NCBI RefSeq assembly: GCF_029623755.1
Contig: NZ_CP121106.1
Coordinates: 1,437,001-1,501,000, forward strand
Direction: 5' to 3'
DNA from: Altererythrobacter sp. CAU 1644
Lineage (GTDB): Bacteria > Pseudomonadota > Alphaproteobacteria > Sphingomonadales > Sphingomonadaceae
Length of the DNA: 64,000 nt
Shown here: piece by piece, positions 12,466 through 20,780 of the stretch
Layout of the letters: every line of letters starts with the position of its first letter
Numbering within the stretch: position 1 is the stretch's first letter
Program-made: the position numbers and the translations under genes
Notes under the pieces: generated by a model
The model's input: the letters and a program-made list of their open reading frames with translations, nothing else
Told to the model about the DNA's origin: nothing
The model's database searches: none

Positions 12466-13587
12466 TTACATGCCCGAACCCGGACCGTAAGTGATTTCCA
12501 CGCGGCGATTCTGCAGTTCGCGAACGCCATCGGCGGTCGGAACGCGCGGCTGCGATTCACCGAACGCTTCGCTGGCGATGCGGTCGTCAGGAACGCCGCG
12601 GCCAGTGAGGTAGTCACGCACGGCGGCGTTACGACGCTCGGATAGGCCGACGTTGTAAGTGGTCGAACCCGAACGGTCAGCGTGACCAGCAAGCATGACG
12701 CTGGCAGTGCCGCAATCAGCATAGGCGCTAACCGCGTTGTCGAGGATGGTCGCTGCCTCAGGCGTGATGTCCGATTCGTCCCAGTTGAAGAAGACGATGT
12801 ACGGCCCCGTGTTGCACACCGCAGCCGGCGGAGGCGGCGGAGGCGGCGGAGGCGGCGGGGGCGGCGGAGGCGGCGGGGGCGGCGGAGGAGGCGGCGGAGC
12901 CTCTTCACCACCGAAGTTGTAGATCAGCGAACCCAGCAGCGAGTGGCTCGTCAGGTCGCCAGCAACATCTCCACCTGCGGTATCAACGAAGTTCAGGTCT
13001 GGGGCGTTGAAGTAACGATACTTCAAACCTACGTCCCAATTTCCGCTCAGCGGAGCGCGAACGCCAGCGAGCAGTTGCCATGCAAAGCCGCTGTCCGAAT
13101 CGTCGATCGCGCCAGGGCCATTGACGTTGAAAGTGCCTTCGATCGAAGTCCGCGCAACGCCGACGCCGCCACCGACGAAGCCCTGAAGGCCGTCATCGTC
13201 TCCGAAATCGAGCAAGCCGTTCAGCATGAAGCTGAGGACATTGGTTTCACCGATCGCATCGACCAAACCACCGGTTGAACGAGCCGCAGGGTTGGCGCCA
13301 ATGAGACCGACGTTTCCGAGGTTGAACTGTTCGATATCAGCTTCACGGTAGCTGGCTTCTGCTTCGAGACGGAAGCCGCCGAAGTCGTGGCCGACTACTG
13401 CACCGAAGTCATAGCCGGTATCGTGATCGACAGAAGTGCCATCCGAAGTACCGTTGATCTTGAGATCAGTGTCTTCGACAAGCATTACACCGCCGTCGAC
13501 ACCGACATACCACTCATTGTCGCGAGCAAACGCCGGCGCGGAGAGCGCCGTCGAAGCCATCGCCATTCCTATGACGAGTTTGCGCAT
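12466..13587 (-). CDS. OmpA-family outer-membrane protein with polyproline linker
   Basis: A 373-residue protein: signal peptide 1-21 (ending SAPAFA), an eight-strand-type beta-barrel of about 210 residues (WYVGVDGGVML onward), 24 consecutive prolines at 231-254, and a C-terminal OmpA peptidoglycan-binding domain with GHADRSGSTTYNVGLSERR and QNRRVEITYGPG. It should tie the outer membrane to the cell wall. ATG 13587 is chosen because it opens the signal peptide; the frame is open further upstream. An EcfG-type promoter lies 163 nt upstream, a hairpin lies in the leader, and a strong terminator follows. Confidence 0.93.
   Translation of the reverse strand: MRKLVIGMAMASTALSAPAFARDNEWYVGVDGGVMLVEDTDLKINGTSDGTSVDHDTGYDFGAVVGHDFGGFRLEAEASYREADIEQFNLGNVGLIGANPAARSTGGLVDAIGETNVLSFMLNGLLDFGDDDGLQGFVGGGVGVARTSIEGTFNVNGPGAIDDSDSGFAWQLLAGVRAPLSGNWDVGLKYRYFNAPDLNFVDTAGGDVAGDLTSHSLLGSLIYNFGGEEAPPPPPPPPPPPPPPPPPPPPPPPPAAVCNTGPYIVFFNWDESDITPEAATILDNAVSAYADCGTASVMLAGHADRSGSTTYNVGLSERRNAAVRDYLTGRGVPDDRIASEAFGESQPRVPTADGVRELQNRRVEITYGPGSGM
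12826..12897 (-). repeat. Low-complexity CCG/CCT/CCC tract coding 24 prolines
   Basis: Seventy-two bases in the ompA frame read only proline codons, mostly in a CCG-CCG-CCT/CCC nine-base periodicity. Such tracts are prone to slippage in multiples of three and could vary in length between strains; slippage by other lengths would disrupt the cell-wall-binding domain. Confidence 0.9.
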
Positions 13588-13722
13588 TATAATATTCCCC
13601 TTCTTAGCGAACTGGAGCCACCAGCCAGTGTCTAACTTTTCCGCTGGATGGTGGCAAGCAGGCATTCCGCCCAAACTGTTGCAAATTAGCCTCTATTTTA
13701 AACAGAACAGCCTTATGACTGA

Positions 13723-13775: not shown

Positions 13776-14234
13776 CTAATTTCTTGGAAAAATTCCAAAT
13801 TGGCGAAGCGCTTCGACAACCTCGGAGAGGGCCTGCCGAACTTCGATATCGACAACTGAGCCGCCGTCGGGTGCTATGGGAACTCCAGCGGCGGTCCACC
13901 CGTCATCGAAGAACATTCGAACCTGATCCTGAAGATTGAGCAGCACCATTCCAGGTCGCGGAGGCGCGAAATGCCAGGTTCCGCCGGCAAAGGTGCAAAG
14001 ATGGTGATCAAATCCCGACCACGCGCCATCAGCCTGTTCGCCGGCCAACCACGTATCGCCTTCCTGCGGCGATGGCGGGGGAGTCGTCGCCACCCCGGTC
14101 ACCTCCGTGTGTAGCAAGGCATCGATCAAAGCATGCGCTTCGTTGACCGAAAATTCTTTCTGAGCCTGCCCCGGGTGAAGCAGGGGAAGTTCAAATCTGG
14201 GAGTCCGCGAAGAAAATGCTGTCGCCTCTGCCAT
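13776..14234 (-). CDS. DUF2793 protein at the distal end of the GTA cluster
   Basis: A 152-residue protein with the DUF2793 features FELPLLHPGQAQKEFSVNEA and a following beta-rich stretch (GDTWLAGEQADGAWSGFDHH, WHFAPPRPGMVLLN). The domain is found at the end of prophage and GTA tail modules and may decorate the tail tip or capsid; the function is not proven. It starts 22 nt after the hub gene stop on the same strand, so it is read as the last gene of the GTA transcript. Confidence 0.78.
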   Translation of the reverse strand: MAEATAFSSRTPRFELPLLHPGQAQKEFSVNEAHALIDALLHTEVTGVATTPPPSPQEGDTWLAGEQADGAWSGFDHHLCTFAGGTWHFAPPRPGMVLLNLQDQVRMFFDDGWTAAGVPIAPDGGSVVDIEVRQALSEVVEALRQFGIFPRN

Positions 14235-14256: not shown

Positions 14257-16449
14257 CTAAATGAGGTCGGTGATCAAGGTGGCAGGAGAGCGCCCGTAGG
14301 TGCCAATCTGACGCACCCACACCGGCGCGCCTGGAAAGCTGGCCAGAAGCGACGCAACTTCCGCCGCTGGAAGATCGAGACCTTCGCTGGCGACCGTCCA
14401 GGAAACGGACGGGCTCTCGACCGAACCGACACCTACTTCGAAAGACTGGGTCTCCTCGACGAGCGGCGTGTCGACATGATCAGGCCAGAGCCATTGGCCG
14501 CGTGCCCGGCGAACCCAACCCAGATTCCAGCCGCCATCCTGCGTCAACCTTTGGGAGGTGTGCACCGGCGAGAGGGGGCGCCGAGTGGCGTCGCCAGCAG
14601 CCAGGTTCGCTATGACGGGCGCTTCGTCGCCTAAGCCGATCGCAGCGATTCGCGTTTCCGGTGTCGCTGGAACTTCGGCCGGGTCGAGAGGAACCAAGGA
14701 ATTGTCGAGCAAGATGGCAGAAGTTCCGGCGGCGTGGCCTGCTGCAGCCAGATGTTCAGTCCCGCCTCGCCCGCGCAGCAGTCCCGATAGGCGCCAGATA
14801 CGGGAAGAAATCTGTCTCGCATCGAGAAACTGCAGGATCTCTTCACCCACCAGCAGACGGTTTTCTCCGTCTCCAATCCCGGCAGCGGTGGTGGTCGCGA
14901 ATTCGAGATCGTCCCCAACCAACTCGACCTCTAGGGCAGCTTCGCGCTCGAAAAAATTCGCGCTCGAGGGGCGGAGCGCGCTCACCAGATGCCCGGCAAC
15001 CGCGCGTCTGGTCGCCGCCTGGTCGAGATCGACCAGTTTACCCATTCGGTCGAGGTAAAGCGCACTTCCCCGCCACGCTGCGTTCTCCGCCGAAGCGGCC
15101 GCAAAGATCATGCGAGCGCTGGAGGATGAGGCTCCGTCCCATGGCAACTCGAACACCCACAGTTTGCTGGCGGGTTGCTGCTGGTCTGTAGGTGGAACGA
15201 TCGCCCCCGAATCCGAAGACAAGACAGCGTCCGCCGCGGCCTGCACGCGCTCAAGCGAAAGCTGGATGCCGCGATCATGCCATTCCCAATTGCGCACCAG
15301 CCACAGGCCGGGTTTGCCCGGGAGCTTCACGATCGAACCGGGCTGAATCGATGGGTCCAGCTCGGCGATTGCCCAGTCCAGCTGTTCAGTCCGCCACCGC
15401 GCTCGGCGTGTAATCCGGTTGCAAAGTCTGACGGCCGCCGGAGCGTCGAAGACCGCCGGTAGTTCCACGACCTCCTCGCGTCCCGTCCCGGCCTGTCCGA
15501 CCGAACGCTGGACGCCAGGTTGGTAATCCCGCGATCTATCATAATAACGCAGTGATCTTGGCGCTGCGCGTTCGTTTGCCGCCCGATGGATGTAGCCGCT
15601 GCTGCTGTAATCATTCCCTTCTTCGTCGCTGCCGAAATCGATCATCGGGGGCAGCATTTGCGGATTTCTGCGAGCCGTCTCGAGCAGGGCCAGTTCCACC
15701 CCGTCTCGCGAATTGATGCAGAGAAGCGGATAGCCTTGCTCCAACAGTTCCAGGTTGGAGAGTAGTGACCCTCCTTCATCGCTGAAGCCTGACATGTCCT
15801 TCAGTTCGAGAGTGGCTTGACCGAGACCTAGGTCGGGTACGATTTGATCGAGAGCGACTTGCTCGAACCGGTCGGCGATAACTTCGAAAGTCAGTGCGGG
15901 AATTCGGTTGCCGAAATCTTCCAGTTGAAGGTCCTCGAAGACGACATAGGCTGTGTCGCGAAAGCCGGGGCAGGTTTCATCGATAGCCCCGCTCAGCAGA
16001 GGATCGGGGAATTCGTCGCCGTCGCCGCGATACCATCGCATTTGGCCCCCGACCTTGAGATCCCCGGCTATGCCTCGCAACAATTTACCATCGGCCCAGA
16101 TCCTACCGAGCGCGTTGATCGGACGGCTGCTCAGGGCCACCGCGAAAGAAGTGCTGTAGCTATAGCTCTTGGTCTTGGGCTTTCCCTTGCCTCCGCCAGT
16201 CGTTTGGGATCTCTCCGCAAGTTCCGCTGCCCAGATGATCGAGCCGGCGACCCGGGTTCGTCCGAAATGGCGCGGAATGGGAACGCCATAGCTGGACGAA
16301 GTCACCGACAGATCCTTGAGCCTTGGCGCAGCGTGCTTGCCGGGCGCGAAGATCCGGCCATCGACTTGCCGTCCAATGACCGCGCCGATCGCACCCCCGA
16401 CGGAACCGCCAATCAATGTGCCGAGGCCGGTTAGAAGAAGCGTCGCCAT
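14257..16449 (-). CDS. GTA terminal tail hub / host-specificity protein (RcGTA g15-type), short form
   Basis: A 730-residue phage-tail protein beginning with a glycine-rich hydrophobic segment (LTGLGTLIGGSVGGAIGAVI) and the hub-type stretch SYGVPIPRHFGRTRVAGSIIWA. The centre and C terminus resemble the tail-fibre/baseplate parts of the Rhodobacter capsulatus GTA g15 megatron, which is about 1300 residues. The central glycosidase-like TIM barrel of the long form is not apparent, so this is a compact version. It follows the NlpC peptidase with a 9-nt gap. Homology to g15 rests on position and end motifs. Confidence 0.8.
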   Translation of the reverse strand: MATLLLTGLGTLIGGSVGGAIGAVIGRQVDGRIFAPGKHAAPRLKDLSVTSSSYGVPIPRHFGRTRVAGSIIWAAELAERSQTTGGGKGKPKTKSYSYSTSFAVALSSRPINALGRIWADGKLLRGIAGDLKVGGQMRWYRGDGDEFPDPLLSGAIDETCPGFRDTAYVVFEDLQLEDFGNRIPALTFEVIADRFEQVALDQIVPDLGLGQATLELKDMSGFSDEGGSLLSNLELLEQGYPLLCINSRDGVELALLETARRNPQMLPPMIDFGSDEEGNDYSSSGYIHRAANERAAPRSLRYYDRSRDYQPGVQRSVGQAGTGREEVVELPAVFDAPAAVRLCNRITRRARWRTEQLDWAIAELDPSIQPGSIVKLPGKPGLWLVRNWEWHDRGIQLSLERVQAAADAVLSSDSGAIVPPTDQQQPASKLWVFELPWDGASSSSARMIFAAASAENAAWRGSALYLDRMGKLVDLDQAATRRAVAGHLVSALRPSSANFFEREAALEVELVGDDLEFATTTAAGIGDGENRLLVGEEILQFLDARQISSRIWRLSGLLRGRGGTEHLAAAGHAAGTSAILLDNSLVPLDPAEVPATPETRIAAIGLGDEAPVIANLAAGDATRRPLSPVHTSQRLTQDGGWNLGWVRRARGQWLWPDHVDTPLVEETQSFEVGVGSVESPSVSWTVASEGLDLPAAEVASLLASFPGAPVWVRQIGTYGRSPATLITDLI

Positions 16450-16458
16450 GGAAATTCC

Positions 16459-16869
16459 CTAAAATTGTCGATCGAGGCGCCAGTGCCTCAGGATTGGCCA
16501 CGGAAGGTCGGCAGCATGCCTCACGATCTTGCCCAGCCCGGCATGCGCGTGGACGAAGCTTCGCTCGCTTTCAGCGATCAGGATGTGGCTCTGAGCTGCT
16601 CCGGGAACGACTAGGAGGATATCTCCGGCGATAACCGGGCCGCGAGCGTCGGTCAGTGAGCTTGCCTTGGCGCAGTTCAGCCAAGGTTCGATACTCAGGT
16701 TGCGCAGCGCATATCCGACGGGATCCGACACGGTCACCTCGGCTCTGGTCAATGCAACAACGAGCAGGCCGACGCAGTCTAGACCGTATTCGGGCTGGCG
16801 ACCGTTCAGTCTGAACCGGGTCCCGATCAATGCGGCGGCTTCCTTCGCCAGCCGCTGGCCGGGTGTCAT
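16459..16869 (-). CDS. NlpC/P60-type tail peptidase (RcGTA g14-type)
   Basis: A 136-residue cysteine peptidase with the nucleophile Cys32 in YGLDCVGLLV and a downstream histidine region, SHILIAESERSFVHAHAG. In phage and GTA tails this enzyme cuts recipient peptidoglycan during DNA delivery. Its ATG overlaps the stop of the preceding hub gene as ATGA, so the two are translationally coupled. Confidence 0.88.
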   Translation of the reverse strand: MTPGQRLAKEAAALIGTRFRLNGRQPEYGLDCVGLLVVALTRAEVTVSDPVGYALRNLSIEPWLNCAKASSLTDARGPVIAGDILLVVPGAAQSHILIAESERSFVHAHAGLGKIVRHAADLPWPILRHWRLDRQF

Positions 16870-17681
16870 TGCCGCGGCGAGGGGTAGCGAGCGAGCAGAT
16901 CATTGCCCGGAAGAAAGGGCTCGCCGCGAAAATTCAGGGCATTACCAAACCGGTAATGACAGGTCGCCAGCGTGTGATCGCAGCCTTGGCGCAGCACCGC
17001 CATCGTTCCGCCCAAGAGGCCTGGCGCGAGCGGCCGGTCGAGAAAGAGCTGCGAGCCCTCCGAGTGAACTACAGAGAATGCTACGCCGACCTGCGGCCCG
17101 CCAAGGAATCGGACGATCCCGTCGATGTATTCTGCTCCGGTAAGGCCTGCGAAGCTGACGGAGTTCGCTTCGTAGTCGACCGCCTCCACCGCTTTGCGAG
17201 AAAGGAATCTCTGGCTCGATAGGCTGCAGCCTTTGCCGCAGAAATCGGCTCGACATACCGGGCTGGTCCTCGGCACAAGGTCGCGCTCGAGCGCAGATTT
17301 CGCTGATTGTAATTCGACGGTAAAGCCATGCTTGCCTCGTTCGATTTGGCCGACCGTGCCGGAATAGAGAGACGTGCTCTCCAGGCTCTCCCAGTCGACC
17401 GCGCCGATCTCGATGTGAGCCCCGTCGTATAGGCCCGCGTCGAGATCGGCTTCCCGGACCGCGTCGTGACTCAGCGCACCGCTGACTTCCGCTGAATCCG
17501 AGGTCAGGTTGGCAGTCTTGCGGATGGCGGAAGGCACCATACCCGGTGCCGCGTGATGCATAACTCCGCCGAAGAAGAGCGCCTGATCGTGACTGGTGAA
17601 GCCCAGACCGATGCCGTCCCGCCGGAAGATCCGCCAATAGGTTGCAACCCCCTCGAGTTCGGTGGCGAAGAAGACCGGCAT
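16866..17681 (-). CDS. DUF2163 tail hub protein (RcGTA g13-type)
   Basis: A 271-residue protein starting MPVFFATELEGVATYWRIFR, with the DUF2163 pattern FTSHDQALFFGGVMHHAAPG and a cysteine-rich C-terminal part, CRADFCGKGCSLS then LRQGCDHTLATCHYRFGNAL. In RcGTA the equivalent is a tail-hub protein with an iron-sulfur-type or metal-type cluster region. The true start is ATG 17681, which shares one base with the preceding stop; the longer frame upstream is not coding. It overlaps the peptidase gene by 4 nt. Confidence 0.88.
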   Translation of the reverse strand: MPVFFATELEGVATYWRIFRRDGIGLGFTSHDQALFFGGVMHHAAPGMVPSAIRKTANLTSDSAEVSGALSHDAVREADLDAGLYDGAHIEIGAVDWESLESTSLYSGTVGQIERGKHGFTVELQSAKSALERDLVPRTSPVCRADFCGKGCSLSSQRFLSRKAVEAVDYEANSVSFAGLTGAEYIDGIVRFLGGPQVGVAFSVVHSEGSQLFLDRPLAPGLLGGTMAVLRQGCDHTLATCHYRFGNALNFRGEPFLPGNDLLARYPSPRQ

Positions 17682-20005
17682 CACTCGACCTCGCGAATTT
17701 CGACCATGGGAACGGAGGGCGCGTCGCCGGCGGCGAAGTTGACCGCGGAGACATCCAGTCGGTCCTCGGCAAAGCGCACGGGGACGTCGAACAGGAACCC
17801 CGCGCGGACCTCCGCTCCTTCGGGCGGAGCACTTGCCAGACGGACTCGCCCGTTGGCTTCCAGCGACCAGTCGCTCTCGATGACCCCGTTCACGCTTACA
17901 ATGATTGTTTCCGCTTTGGGACGCGAGATCGGTCGGACCTGCGGTTCCTCGCCGTCGCCGTAGCGCTTTACCAACTGGAAATCCGCCTTCAGTCCATCGC
18001 CCATTCCGATAAGCTGATCGGTTGCCGACGGTGTTCCGATCATGCCGCTGGAACTGAAATCGAAGGGGTCTGTGAAGCGAAATCCGCGGGCCGCGCCGCG
18101 CCGCGCCCGGAAGAAGGCCAACAACTCGGCCAGTTCGTCCTCCGAGCGGATGCCGGGCCCCGCATCGAAGTGCATGCGGGCATCCGACCACAGCGAGTTC
18201 CTGCGCTCGTGCCCCGATGCGGTGACCACTACCGAAGTCGAGAACTCGGGGCTGGCCGAGGCATCGCGGCCGAGTGCAAAGGGATAGAGCACATCATCGA
18301 AGGCTTGCATGTCGTCATCCTGTTCGAAGGAGGGTAAGCGCACATATCCGTCGCGCGAGATTTGCGGCAGCGCCCAGACGAAACGACGCGACACGCCGCG
18401 CGCTTCTGCCTCGTCGAGCGCGGCATCGATACGGGGCCAGAGCGCTTCGCTGTCTTCTGCCCTGAGCACGAAGCCCGAGAGATAGTCCTGCGCAGCGATA
18501 GGATAGCCGAGCCGCTGGTCGACTTGGGCATAGGCATTCCGGCGCGCCGCATCGGCACCCGCAGTGACCCAGTCGTAATCCTCCAGCTGCAGCCGGTCGA
18601 AGGCCGGGTAGGCCCAGCCGCTCGGCAGATTGGCGCGATGGAGCTCGGGCATCTGCGGATCGAGTATCGTCGGTGTGAAGGCGAGGAGCAGGACCTCTGC
18701 ACCGCCCGTCGCGGCCTCGCGCACGGCCTGTGCGACGCTGGCGGTTGATTGCGCGAGCAATGTCCCGGCATGGTCGAGCAGCGCGGTCTGCGCAGAGGAC
18801 AATGGCGCGCGCATATCGGTGATGACCGCTGGCGAGCCGCCGAATGCTGTCATCGCCGCTTCGTCATAGAGGCACGGCCGCCCGTCGGCAGCCACCCACC
18901 ACCAGGGCTCGCCAATCTGAAAGCGGACCGGCAGGCCGGCCTGCTCCTGCAGCAAGACGAACGCGGTCGCCGCCTGCTGCAGCCACTGCATCGCCTCCGC
19001 TTGGGCAGGCGAGAGGAGGGTAGAGGGCGGCACCCAGCCGGTCAGCGCGGCCTCGCCATCATGCGTGCGCTGTTTCCAGTCTGCGGGGCAATACTCGTCG
19101 AACAGCTCGTAGGAGAGCGAGGCGATCACCTCGAATTCGTTGTCGCGGCAATGCCCGAAGAAACTGCGGTGCCATTGCTCGGCAGGGGACGAGATGACTG
19201 CTGGCGCGACCACTTCGACCAACCCGCCAACGGCGGCCAATCGCATGAAGTGGCTCATGCCGACGTAGTGCAATATCTCGTCGCGATAGCCGAGGCCGAT
19301 CGCGCTGCGGACCAGCCGTGCAGGCGTCTGGTTGTAGGCGTCGTCATAGGCAGTGGCGATGCGGACCCCGTGCGTTGGCGTGAGCACATCGCCCGTCTCG
19401 AGCATCGAATGCGCACCGTCGCAGGAAATGCCGCTGATCGTGACCGAGCCGTTGGCGCGCGACGCCAAGGGAACTTCGCTCCCCGACACATAGCCCGGCG
19501 GCACCAGCGAAATGAACATCCGGTCGATCGCGGAGGGATGGACCTTGTCGCCCGGCAGGAACCATCCGCCCTCGAGGTCGGAGAAGCGGAGTTCGATTTG
19601 CGCGTCGGTCGGGCTGCCAGTGGCATAGTTCCACAGCCGGACATACCAGGTTCGCGCGTTGCCTGACGCGTCGCGCCCCTCGATCGTCAGCGTCGGGCCA
19701 TTAGCCTGGTCGAGCGCGATCAGGCCGGTCGATTGCCAGCGGAAACGCAGGGCCGTGTGGGCGTAATTGCGCCTGGTCTCGTAAGCGAGCAGCGGATGAT
19801 CCCACTTGTCCTCGCTGTCCCAGATCAGCCCGACCAGTTCGCCTGCATGGTGAAATTCGCAATCCACCCGCATGCTATCGGGGCCGGTCGTGACGACCGA
19901 AGCGAGCGCGGGGCGGGGGAAGTCGACGGTCCAGAAACGCGGATCGAACCGCTGGATCCAGCTCGTTTCCTGCCCCCGCCTTCTGCTGGCGAGCCAAAAT
20001 GCCAT
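17681..20005 (-). CDS. GTA distal tail protein: DUF2460 fused to a large TIM-barrel-like N-terminal module
   Basis: 774 residues, against about 210 for RcGTA g12. The C-terminal part (about 568-774) is a DUF2460 distal-tail domain (FFRARRGAARGFRFTDPFDF, then VRPISRPKAETIIVSVNGVI). The preceding ~560 residues comprise a beta-rich N-terminal part (IQRFDPRFWTVDFPRP onward) and, from about 215, a segment with glycoside-hydrolase-like features: FQIGEPWWW at 362-370, alternating helices and strands, RFVWALPQ near 541. This layout matches the non-contractile tail-sheath-type proteins described in siphophages, from memory of that family. It has one frame with no sign of assembly error. It overlaps the hub gene by one base. 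Confidence 0.82.
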   Translation of the reverse strand: MAFWLASRRRGQETSWIQRFDPRFWTVDFPRPALASVVTTGPDSMRVDCEFHHAGELVGLIWDSEDKWDHPLLAYETRRNYAHTALRFRWQSTGLIALDQANGPTLTIEGRDASGNARTWYVRLWNYATGSPTDAQIELRFSDLEGGWFLPGDKVHPSAIDRMFISLVPPGYVSGSEVPLASRANGSVTISGISCDGAHSMLETGDVLTPTHGVRIATAYDDAYNQTPARLVRSAIGLGYRDEILHYVGMSHFMRLAAVGGLVEVVAPAVISSPAEQWHRSFFGHCRDNEFEVIASLSYELFDEYCPADWKQRTHDGEAALTGWVPPSTLLSPAQAEAMQWLQQAATAFVLLQEQAGLPVRFQIGEPWWWVAADGRPCLYDEAAMTAFGGSPAVITDMRAPLSSAQTALLDHAGTLLAQSTASVAQAVREAATGGAEVLLLAFTPTILDPQMPELHRANLPSGWAYPAFDRLQLEDYDWVTAGADAARRNAYAQVDQRLGYPIAAQDYLSGFVLRAEDSEALWPRIDAALDEAEARGVSRRFVWALPQISRDGYVRLPSFEQDDDMQAFDDVLYPFALGRDASASPEFSTSVVVTASGHERRNSLWSDARMHFDAGPGIRSEDELAELLAFFRARRGAARGFRFTDPFDFSSSGMIGTPSATDQLIGMGDGLKADFQLVKRYGDGEEPQVRPISRPKAETIIVSVNGVIESDWSLEANGRVRLASAPPEGAEVRAGFLFDVPVRFAEDRLDVSAVNFAAGDAPSVPMVEIREVE

Positions 20006-20017
20006 GTCGGAAACTCC

Positions 20018-20587
20018 TCAGCTGTCTTGCAATGCGCGGCGCACCGCGCTGGCCACCTGGCGTGACGAGCGGCGCAGCGAGGTGGGGGCGGAGGCACCGC
20101 GCGGCGTGGCCAGCTGGATCGAAACCCGAACATCGCGCCCCGATGGCTGGCCGGGCATGCCCGCTTCGACCCGGCCCGCGCTGGTCGGCACGAACAGCTC
20201 CGGCCCGCGTTCGCCAACCACATAGCCGCGGCCCGGCGACACCGGACCGCCGGTCGCGCGCCCCGGCAGTCCGAGCAGCGACGTCAGCAAGCCGCCGACC
20301 GCGCCGCCCGTTCCTCCAGAGCTGCCGAAGATCGCATCCAGGCCCATCTGCAATGCGCGTGATGCAATCTCGTCAAGCGCCTGCATGGCGTTGCGTTTGA
20401 GTTCGCCGAAGCCCAGGCTGCCGCTGCGGATCGCCTTCGCCAGCCCGCGCTCGAGCACCGAACCCGCGCGCTCGAAGCCATCGAGCAACGTGCTGTCGAA
20501 AGCGCCGCGCATCTGCGCCAAATCACTGGCGAAGCCGTTGGTCGCCGCGCGTACCTCGACCACCAGTTCGTCCATCGGTTCATCCAT
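20018..20587 (-). CDS. Short tail tape measure protein (RcGTA g11-type)
   Basis: A 189-residue protein, MDEPMDELVVEVRAATNGFA, with an amphipathic N-terminal half, a glycine-rich hydrophobic centre (GSSGGTGGAVGGLLTSLLGL) and the conserved tape-measure-like motif GYVVGERGPELFVPTSAGR. The length is close to the small RcGTA tape measure and implies a short tail. The start is either ATG 20587, favoured by family N termini, or GTG 20596; both overlap the upstream chaperone gene's stop at 20580. Confidence 0.8.
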   Translation of the reverse strand: MDEPMDELVVEVRAATNGFASDLAQMRGAFDSTLLDGFERAGSVLERGLAKAIRSGSLGFGELKRNAMQALDEIASRALQMGLDAIFGSSGGTGGAVGGLLTSLLGLPGRATGGPVSPGRGYVVGERGPELFVPTSAGRVEAGMPGQPSGRDVRVSIQLATPRGASAPTSLRRSSRQVASAVRRALQDS

Positions 20588-20780
20588 TGCGGTCACGCTC
20601 CATCAGGGTTTCAAGATCGCTGCGGCTCAGCGCCCCCTCGGCACCAGGCGCGCGCGGATCGGCCAGCGAGGTGGCCAGTTCTTCGGGCGTGGCGCGCCAG
20701 AACTCGTCGGGTTTCCAGCCGAGCGCCTGGGCGCTCACGGCTGCGAGTTCCCGGGCCGAGCGCGCAAAAGTGTCGCTCAC
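20580..20780 (-). CDS. Tail assembly chaperone (RcGTA g10.1-type)
   Basis: A 66-residue protein starting with GTG at 20780 inside a GTGA overlap with the gp10-type gene. It contains AVSAQALGWKPDEFWRATPE, typical of the small phage tail assembly chaperone of this cluster. The longer frame upstream runs antiparallel-free through the gp10 coding region and is not used. The end overlaps the tape-measure start. Confidence 0.82.
   Translation of the reverse strand: MSDTFARSARELAAVSAQALGWKPDEFWRATPEELATSLADPRAPGAEGALSRSDLETLMERDRNG

Follow-up and report, generated by a model that had tools for sequence, protein, structure and literature searches.

In the gene transfer agent (GTA) of Rhodobacter (RcGTA), which is the only GTA for which we found a solved particle, the available text of the structural study describes a single hexameric ring of the distal tail protein (Dit; gp12), whose N-terminal Ala2 lies at the contact with the hub and the megatron, and a peripheral domain at residues 230-744 of the megatron gp15 (PMC7296036). 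The accessible part of a preprint (PMC13420450) calls this domain a TIM (triosephosphate isomerase) barrel, places three such barrels together with a detachable tailspike, TspA, in the tip zone, and reports megatron-bearing species without TspA outside Rhodobacterales. Coliphage N4 is described, in the portions available, with a six-fold sheath of gp64:gp65 heterodimers around its tail, gp65 being the receptor binder (PMC12633501, PMC12892993). Here we analyzed a 64,000-nucleotide stretch of Altererythrobacter sp. CAU 1644, order Sphingomonadales (contig NZ_CP121106.1, positions 1,437,001 to 1,501,000; hereafter the window). Its g12 homologue, the distal-tail gene of a predicted RcGTA-like GTA (alphaproteobacterial type I), encodes 774 residues, of which the front ~560 are, by profile comparison, homologous to the non-contractile tail sheath of N4.

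Three Pfam domains are recognized in this protein, the first two being those of the N4-type non-contractile tail sheath (PF23844/PF23845): NCTSP_N at residues 17-205 (E 2.8e-93, 310.9 bits against a cut-off of 27), TIM-barrel_NCTSP at 210-554 (E 1.1e-167, 557.9 bits against 27) and, confined to the C-terminus, DUF2460 at 570-771 (E 5e-75, 251.9 bits against 30.4), where NCBIfam also identifies a distal tail protein of the Rcc01695 family (TIGR02217, 213.5 bits against 136.65). RcGTA gp12 itself (Rcc01695, chain 6tba_6B), a 210-residue Dit without the front module, can be aligned only to residues 568-771, beginning at its own residue 2, and the g15-type barrel profile GTA_TIM (PF13547) has no match in the 774-residue protein in a Pfam scan at E<=1. 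The whole-protein AlphaFold2 model is confident (predicted local distance difference test, pLDDT, 93.5) and contains a glycosidase-type TIM barrel, and most of its listed non-phage fold neighbors (Foldseek, 50 listed) are carbohydrate-active enzymes; RcGTA and R4C megatron chains are absent among these 50, an absence that is no evidence in itself. A 591-column Foldseek match to 2wys, a CBM22-GH10 xylanase, hints that NCTSP_N may be a carbohydrate-binding-type sandwich; a second structural comparison (VIA) bears almost entirely on the residues after 210. An earlier note on this DNA had described a 774-residue protein in place of the roughly 210 residues of RcGTA g12, with DUF2460 only at its C-terminus and a ~560-residue sheath- or TIM-barrel-like front with glycosidase-like features, and had proposed structure prediction, a fold search and profile searches as checks; the description agrees with the alignment, profiles and model in each of these respects.

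The likeness to N4 extends over both of its sheath proteins. With the family profile, gp65 residues 45-130 and 343-416 correspond to residues 6-91 and 185-257 of the window protein, and gp64 residues 109-411 to 270-559; of the modelled barrel strands, the first two thus fall to the second gp65 stretch and the remaining six to gp64, so that the N4 pair looks like an NCTSP unit cut inside the barrel. The N4 proteins (PDB 9lc0, 9yf4, 9yf5) share the NCTSP_N and TIM-barrel segments with the window g12, as well as the GEPWWW and QxEDYDW motifs in gp64, but divide the unit over two proteins, have no joined Dit and carry many extra domains in gp65. Window-type g12 proteins thus provide the N4 sheath with an intact single-chain relative.

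To describe conservation, we collected 318 open reading frames (ORFs) with both module domains, comprising 292 fused to Dit, 12 fused to the hub (near-duplicates included) and 14 without a partner in the same ORF (seven phi92-like forms, phage Loki and six GTA-type copies that end before Dit). Glu300 (E300) is present in 318/318 of these, E366 in 316/318 and E475 in 315/318, the remainder being gapped, and all three glutamates are kept in the alignment of N4 gp64. E300, E366, D381, E475 and W368-W370 are invariant across 105 aligned sequences that span the GTA, prophage and phi92-like forms. The FQIGEPWWW motif singled out by the earlier note does lie at residues 362-370, with Q363, G365, E366, P367 and W368-W370 invariant. 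Among the 93 full-length fused proteins of alignment A1, conservation is much alike in the module (0.72 and 0.66) and in Dit (0.71). The modelled (beta/alpha)8 barrel has a conserved glutamate after strand 4, as in barrels of the glycosidase clan GH-A, where the strand-4 glutamate is the usual acid position and the nucleophile glutamate sits after strand 7.

The module on g12 is accompanied by a missing domain on g15. The window g15 homologue scores 353 bits against a profile cut-off of 800, and the peripheral domain of the RcGTA megatron (Rcc01698) is missing from it, as judged by sequence spacing and alignment rather than by the match to 6tba_8A, which is no test of this domain because no more than 439 residues are modelled in that chain. 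By sequence spacing, g15 is without the peripheral domain in 227/227 measured loci that have the NCTSP module. In the literature covered, differences in g12 and g15 length in Sphingomonadales are stated only in the Methods of a 2020 paper (PMC7360931), with no reason given there; with the module on g12 and the peripheral domain missing from g15, they are accounted for.

To assess the distribution of the two barrels, we surveyed 289 genomes sampled across the class (including that of the window; cross-tabulated by hand) and an order-wide sample of 157 Sphingomonadales genomes. In the class sample DUF2460 occurs in 50/289 genomes, GTA_TIM in 32/289 and the NCTSP barrel in 5/289. The five NCTSP genomes all have DUF2460 and consist of four with Dit fusions, in the family of the window genome, and one with a hub fusion (G133); 16 genomes have DUF2460 with neither barrel, three have GTA_TIM without DUF2460 (G078, G131, G263), and both barrels together occur in 0/289. 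The long form in RcGTA-type clusters, which the earlier note had named as evidence against its reading, was not encountered, the NCTSP barrel being present in 0/29 class-sample genomes with DUF2460 and GTA_TIM, and the note's suggestion of a GTA subtype is supported. Within the order, the NCTSP barrel occurs in 78/157 genomes and DUF2460 in 81/157, three genomes having DUF2460 only, in forms of 204-232 residues (G305, G317, G341), and GTA_TIM occurs in 0/157. A three-domain ORF is present in 80/80 of the best genome-contig loci out of 539 stretches encoding a relative. Of 8000 candidate proteins scored, 5350 reach E<=0.001, all 120 listed carrying the three Pfam domains. Chance or a single-assembly artefact is ruled out by these loci, the 78 NCTSP genomes of the order and the matching proteins, and the fusion is the usual form in Sphingomonadales GTAs rather than a trait of this one genome.

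Relatives also occur among viral records. A Dit-fused relative with 47.9% identity lies, in two ORFs, on a human faecal sequence labelled 'Bacteriophage sp.' (L268, MT840053.1) and is followed by a hub and the N-terminal part of g15; it resembles a piece of a GTA cluster more than a phage. In IMG/VR, at least 600 stretches encode a relative, and the best 80 (L186-L265) are on contigs of ~4-17 kb, sizes that would be expected if GTA clusters had been mistaken for viruses.

Tip modules have three addresses: g15 in RcGTA-type clusters, the hub g13 in some phages and prophages, and Dit in Sphingomonadales GTAs. In prophage-like and viral loci (L086-L088, L269-L276) the same NCTSP-TIM module is fused to g13 by a similarly short linker (12-15 residues, n=12, compared with 11-20 residues to Dit, n=296, median 13), and g15, where covered, is short and without the peripheral domain as in the window; these loci differ in having a separate Dit, found upstream wherever the contig reaches far enough. 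Hub-fused forms group together with support of 100/98 in a midpoint-rooted tree of 62 sequences, and two ORFs without a detected Dit match (L311 and L332, labelled 'none') sit in the Dit-fused clade. Acinetobacter phage Loki follows the gene order of the hub-fused loci, with NCTSP_N and TIM in a 900-residue protein, LOKI_17, directly after a 205-residue distal tail protein; it is not fused to Dit, and its position and phrog_6040 type suggest a hub fusion, phrog_6040 having a weak C-terminal match to the window hub and LOKI_17 no direct hub match that we found. In the contractile-tail phage phi92, gp142 (719 residues) matches residues 18-562 at 31.3% identity through NCTSP_N and TIM, is without a Dit or hub match, and adjoins a tailspike gene; the available part of a review table places it among glycosidases (PMC5380687).

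Collectively, these data show that the window g12 joins a complete N4-type sheath unit to Dit. It is fairly probable, in our judgment, that the particle bears six glycan-binding and probably cleaving units of this kind, where copy number, placement and activity are what we infer. If the tail tube ends in a six-fold Dit ring like that of RcGTA, each particle would carry six modules on short hinges, and because the gp12 alignment starts at residue 2 and given the position of Ala2 in RcGTA, these should emerge at the contact of Dit, hub and megatron, as a six-petalled collar or short sheath. Such a collar may bind surface or biofilm polysaccharide, probably cleave it and bring the tip to the outer membrane, and would do what the peripheral barrel of the megatron does in RcGTA, perhaps along with the work of the Rhodobacterales TspA tailspike. 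A continuous tail-long sheath made from g12 alone was considered and rejected, since every copy is covalently attached to a Dit subunit and just one Dit hexamer is described for RcGTA (PMC7296036); a short collar or a folded-back sheath is possible. More tentatively, and with somewhat less than even confidence, we suggest a distinct delivery subtype in which six permanently tethered N4-type units encircle the tail tip and cut through a kin-specific capsule or biofilm glycan, a phage receptor-binding sheath having been domesticated for recipient recognition in host-controlled DNA exchange. If six cutting sheath units are indeed present, the N4 sheath heterodimer would be the split relative of a single-chain unit.

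Several observations weigh against this interpretation. The third conserved glutamate, E475, follows strand 6 by order in the predicted model and not strand 7, so catalysis is not established, and N4 gp64 and gp65 are described in the available text as sheath and receptor binder and not called enzymes, though gp64 keeps the same glutamates. We found no activity or particle structure for any Sphingomonadales GTA. The Dit-fused forms make one clade with an open support of only 80/94, and at least 7/78 order-sample genomes (G297, G315, G323, G348, G394, G402, G406) have a broken module gene (split, truncated, stopped or with an internal gap), possibly through GTA decay or sequencing error. Many of the loci counted overlap or are closely related. 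Moreover, of 15 g15 ORFs in loci that lack both barrels, 12 carry another kind of insert, of 419-500 residues, and three carry only 151-203 residues, so not every tip needs a TIM barrel. The displaced glutamate, and the receptor-binding role of the N4 sheath subunits as the closest solved relatives, would also suit a catalytically dead glycosidase-fold collar whose ligand is a glycan or an outer-membrane protein, like NfrA for N4 gp65. We regard this as rather unlikely, although not negligible, as the invariance of E300, E366, D381, E475 and W368-W370 exceeds the needs of a bare scaffold and the non-phage fold neighbors are mostly carbohydrate-active; the module is probably glycan-cleaving.

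Relocation of the RcGTA g15 TIM barrel to g12, the course suggested by the earlier note, would be consistent with the complementary distributions of GTA_TIM and the NCTSP barrel and with both being TIM barrels, but the two belong to separate Pfam models without detectable profile similarity (hhalign probability 0.8%), so the barrel appears replaced, not moved. With an extra NCTSP_N domain in the module, and nearest kin among N4-, phi92- and Loki-type phage proteins, relocation is very hard to credit, and the pattern looks like loss of the g15 GTA_TIM and gain of an unlike NCTSP barrel. A decaying or active prophage, with the fusion as a phage tail variant, is improbable as well, if a little less so. 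Module relatives in phages (phrog_6040, Loki), the listing of such clusters in IMG/VR as viral contigs and the broken copies are what such an origin might leave, but the Dit-fused forms stand apart from the hub-fused phage forms (at the 80/94 fork, under midpoint rooting), half of the sampled order has the module (78/157), and the surroundings are those of a GTA. The head-tail cluster spans ~13.5 kb in RcGTA order, including Dit, hub, peptidase and megatron, with portal, prohead protease, capsid, connector, tail tube, Dit and hub above curated cut-offs and terminase, rcc01693-type, tape measure, NlpC-like and megatron proteins below them. The gene queC is nearby in 56/57 loci longer than 18 kb (among the 80 kept; close relatives only, ~61% identity or more), consistent with vertical inheritance at a fixed host locus, and a DUF6456 gene lies elsewhere in the genome, gafA being listed as a DUF6456 protein in the available part of PMC9765227. 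RcGTA gene order, the 192-residue tape measure, the queC neighbor and the DUF6456 gene together support the assignment of the locus as a GTA.

Earlier knowledge takes in the Pfam families, database proteins with the fusion and the g12/g15 length difference; in the literature covered, which did not include a 2017 'ancient prophage' paper on the order, we found no printed account of the identity of this module in a GTA. The results suggest that the tail tip of Sphingomonadales GTAs differs from that of RcGTA in its barrel, its anchor protein and, by inference, its copy number, six rather than three. They lead to concrete, testable predictions on the choice of recipients by GTAs and on their passage through capsules or biofilms.

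Table 1. Features of the g12 homologue and adjacent tail genes (window coordinates, forward-strand numbering).
Feature	Position	Strand	Evidence
g12 homologue, 774 aa, ATG start; NCTSP_N, NCTSP TIM barrel and DUF2460 Dit fusion	17681..20005	-	ORF call, profiles, model
NCTSP_N domain, residues 17-205, mostly beta	19391..19957	-	Pfam, AlphaFold2 model, N4 gp65 match
Predicted (beta/alpha)8 barrel, NCTSP type, residues 210-554	18344..19378	-	Pfam, AlphaFold2 model, Foldseek, N4 matches
E300, directly after barrel strand 3	19106..19108	-	318/318 module ORFs
GEPWWW, residues 365-370; E366 after barrel strand 4 and Trp triplet	18896..18913	-	Conservation, model
E475 within QLEDYDW, end of barrel strand 6	18581..18583	-	Conservation, model
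Linker 555-567, low-confidence hinge, least conserved stretch	18305..18343	-	Residues 563-566 pLDDT < 50, conservation
Residues 568-774, complete distal tail protein	17684..18304	-	Pfam, NCBIfam, alignment to RcGTA gp12
g11 tape measure, 192 aa, short tail	20018..20596	-	Profiles
g13 baseplate hub, TIGR02218, separate gene	16866..17681	-	Profiles
g14 NlpC/P60-like peptidase	16459..16869	-	19.7 bits, below Pfam cut-off 23
g15 megatron homologue, 730 aa, without RcGTA peripheral (TIM) domain, core kept	14257..16449	-	Profiles, alignment, spacing

The 419-500-residue insert at the g15 peripheral position (L058, L060, L066, L171-L173, L175-L178, L181, L182) may be a third kind of tip module. As a set it matches the corresponding stretch of GTA_TIM loci only in the last ~91 columns, a shared flank, and has no match to the NCTSP barrel; six of the 12 ORFs were scanned and gave no Pfam match at E<=0.01. 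In two other g15 homologues, those of L059 and L179, there is little peripheral insert, and the C-terminus is extended by adhesin-like sequence, matching Gp38 (below cut-off) and fn3, respectively.

Directly after the window g15, at 13776-14234, lies a DUF2793 gene, a candidate tail-fibre or adaptor gene that is found downstream of g15 in 21/22 Sphingomonadales Dit-fused loci, the remaining locus stopping at a contig edge. Further along, positions 12466-13674 hold a gene for an OmpA-type outer-membrane protein, named by eye, whose C-terminal domain is preceded by a long unbroken stretch of prolines.
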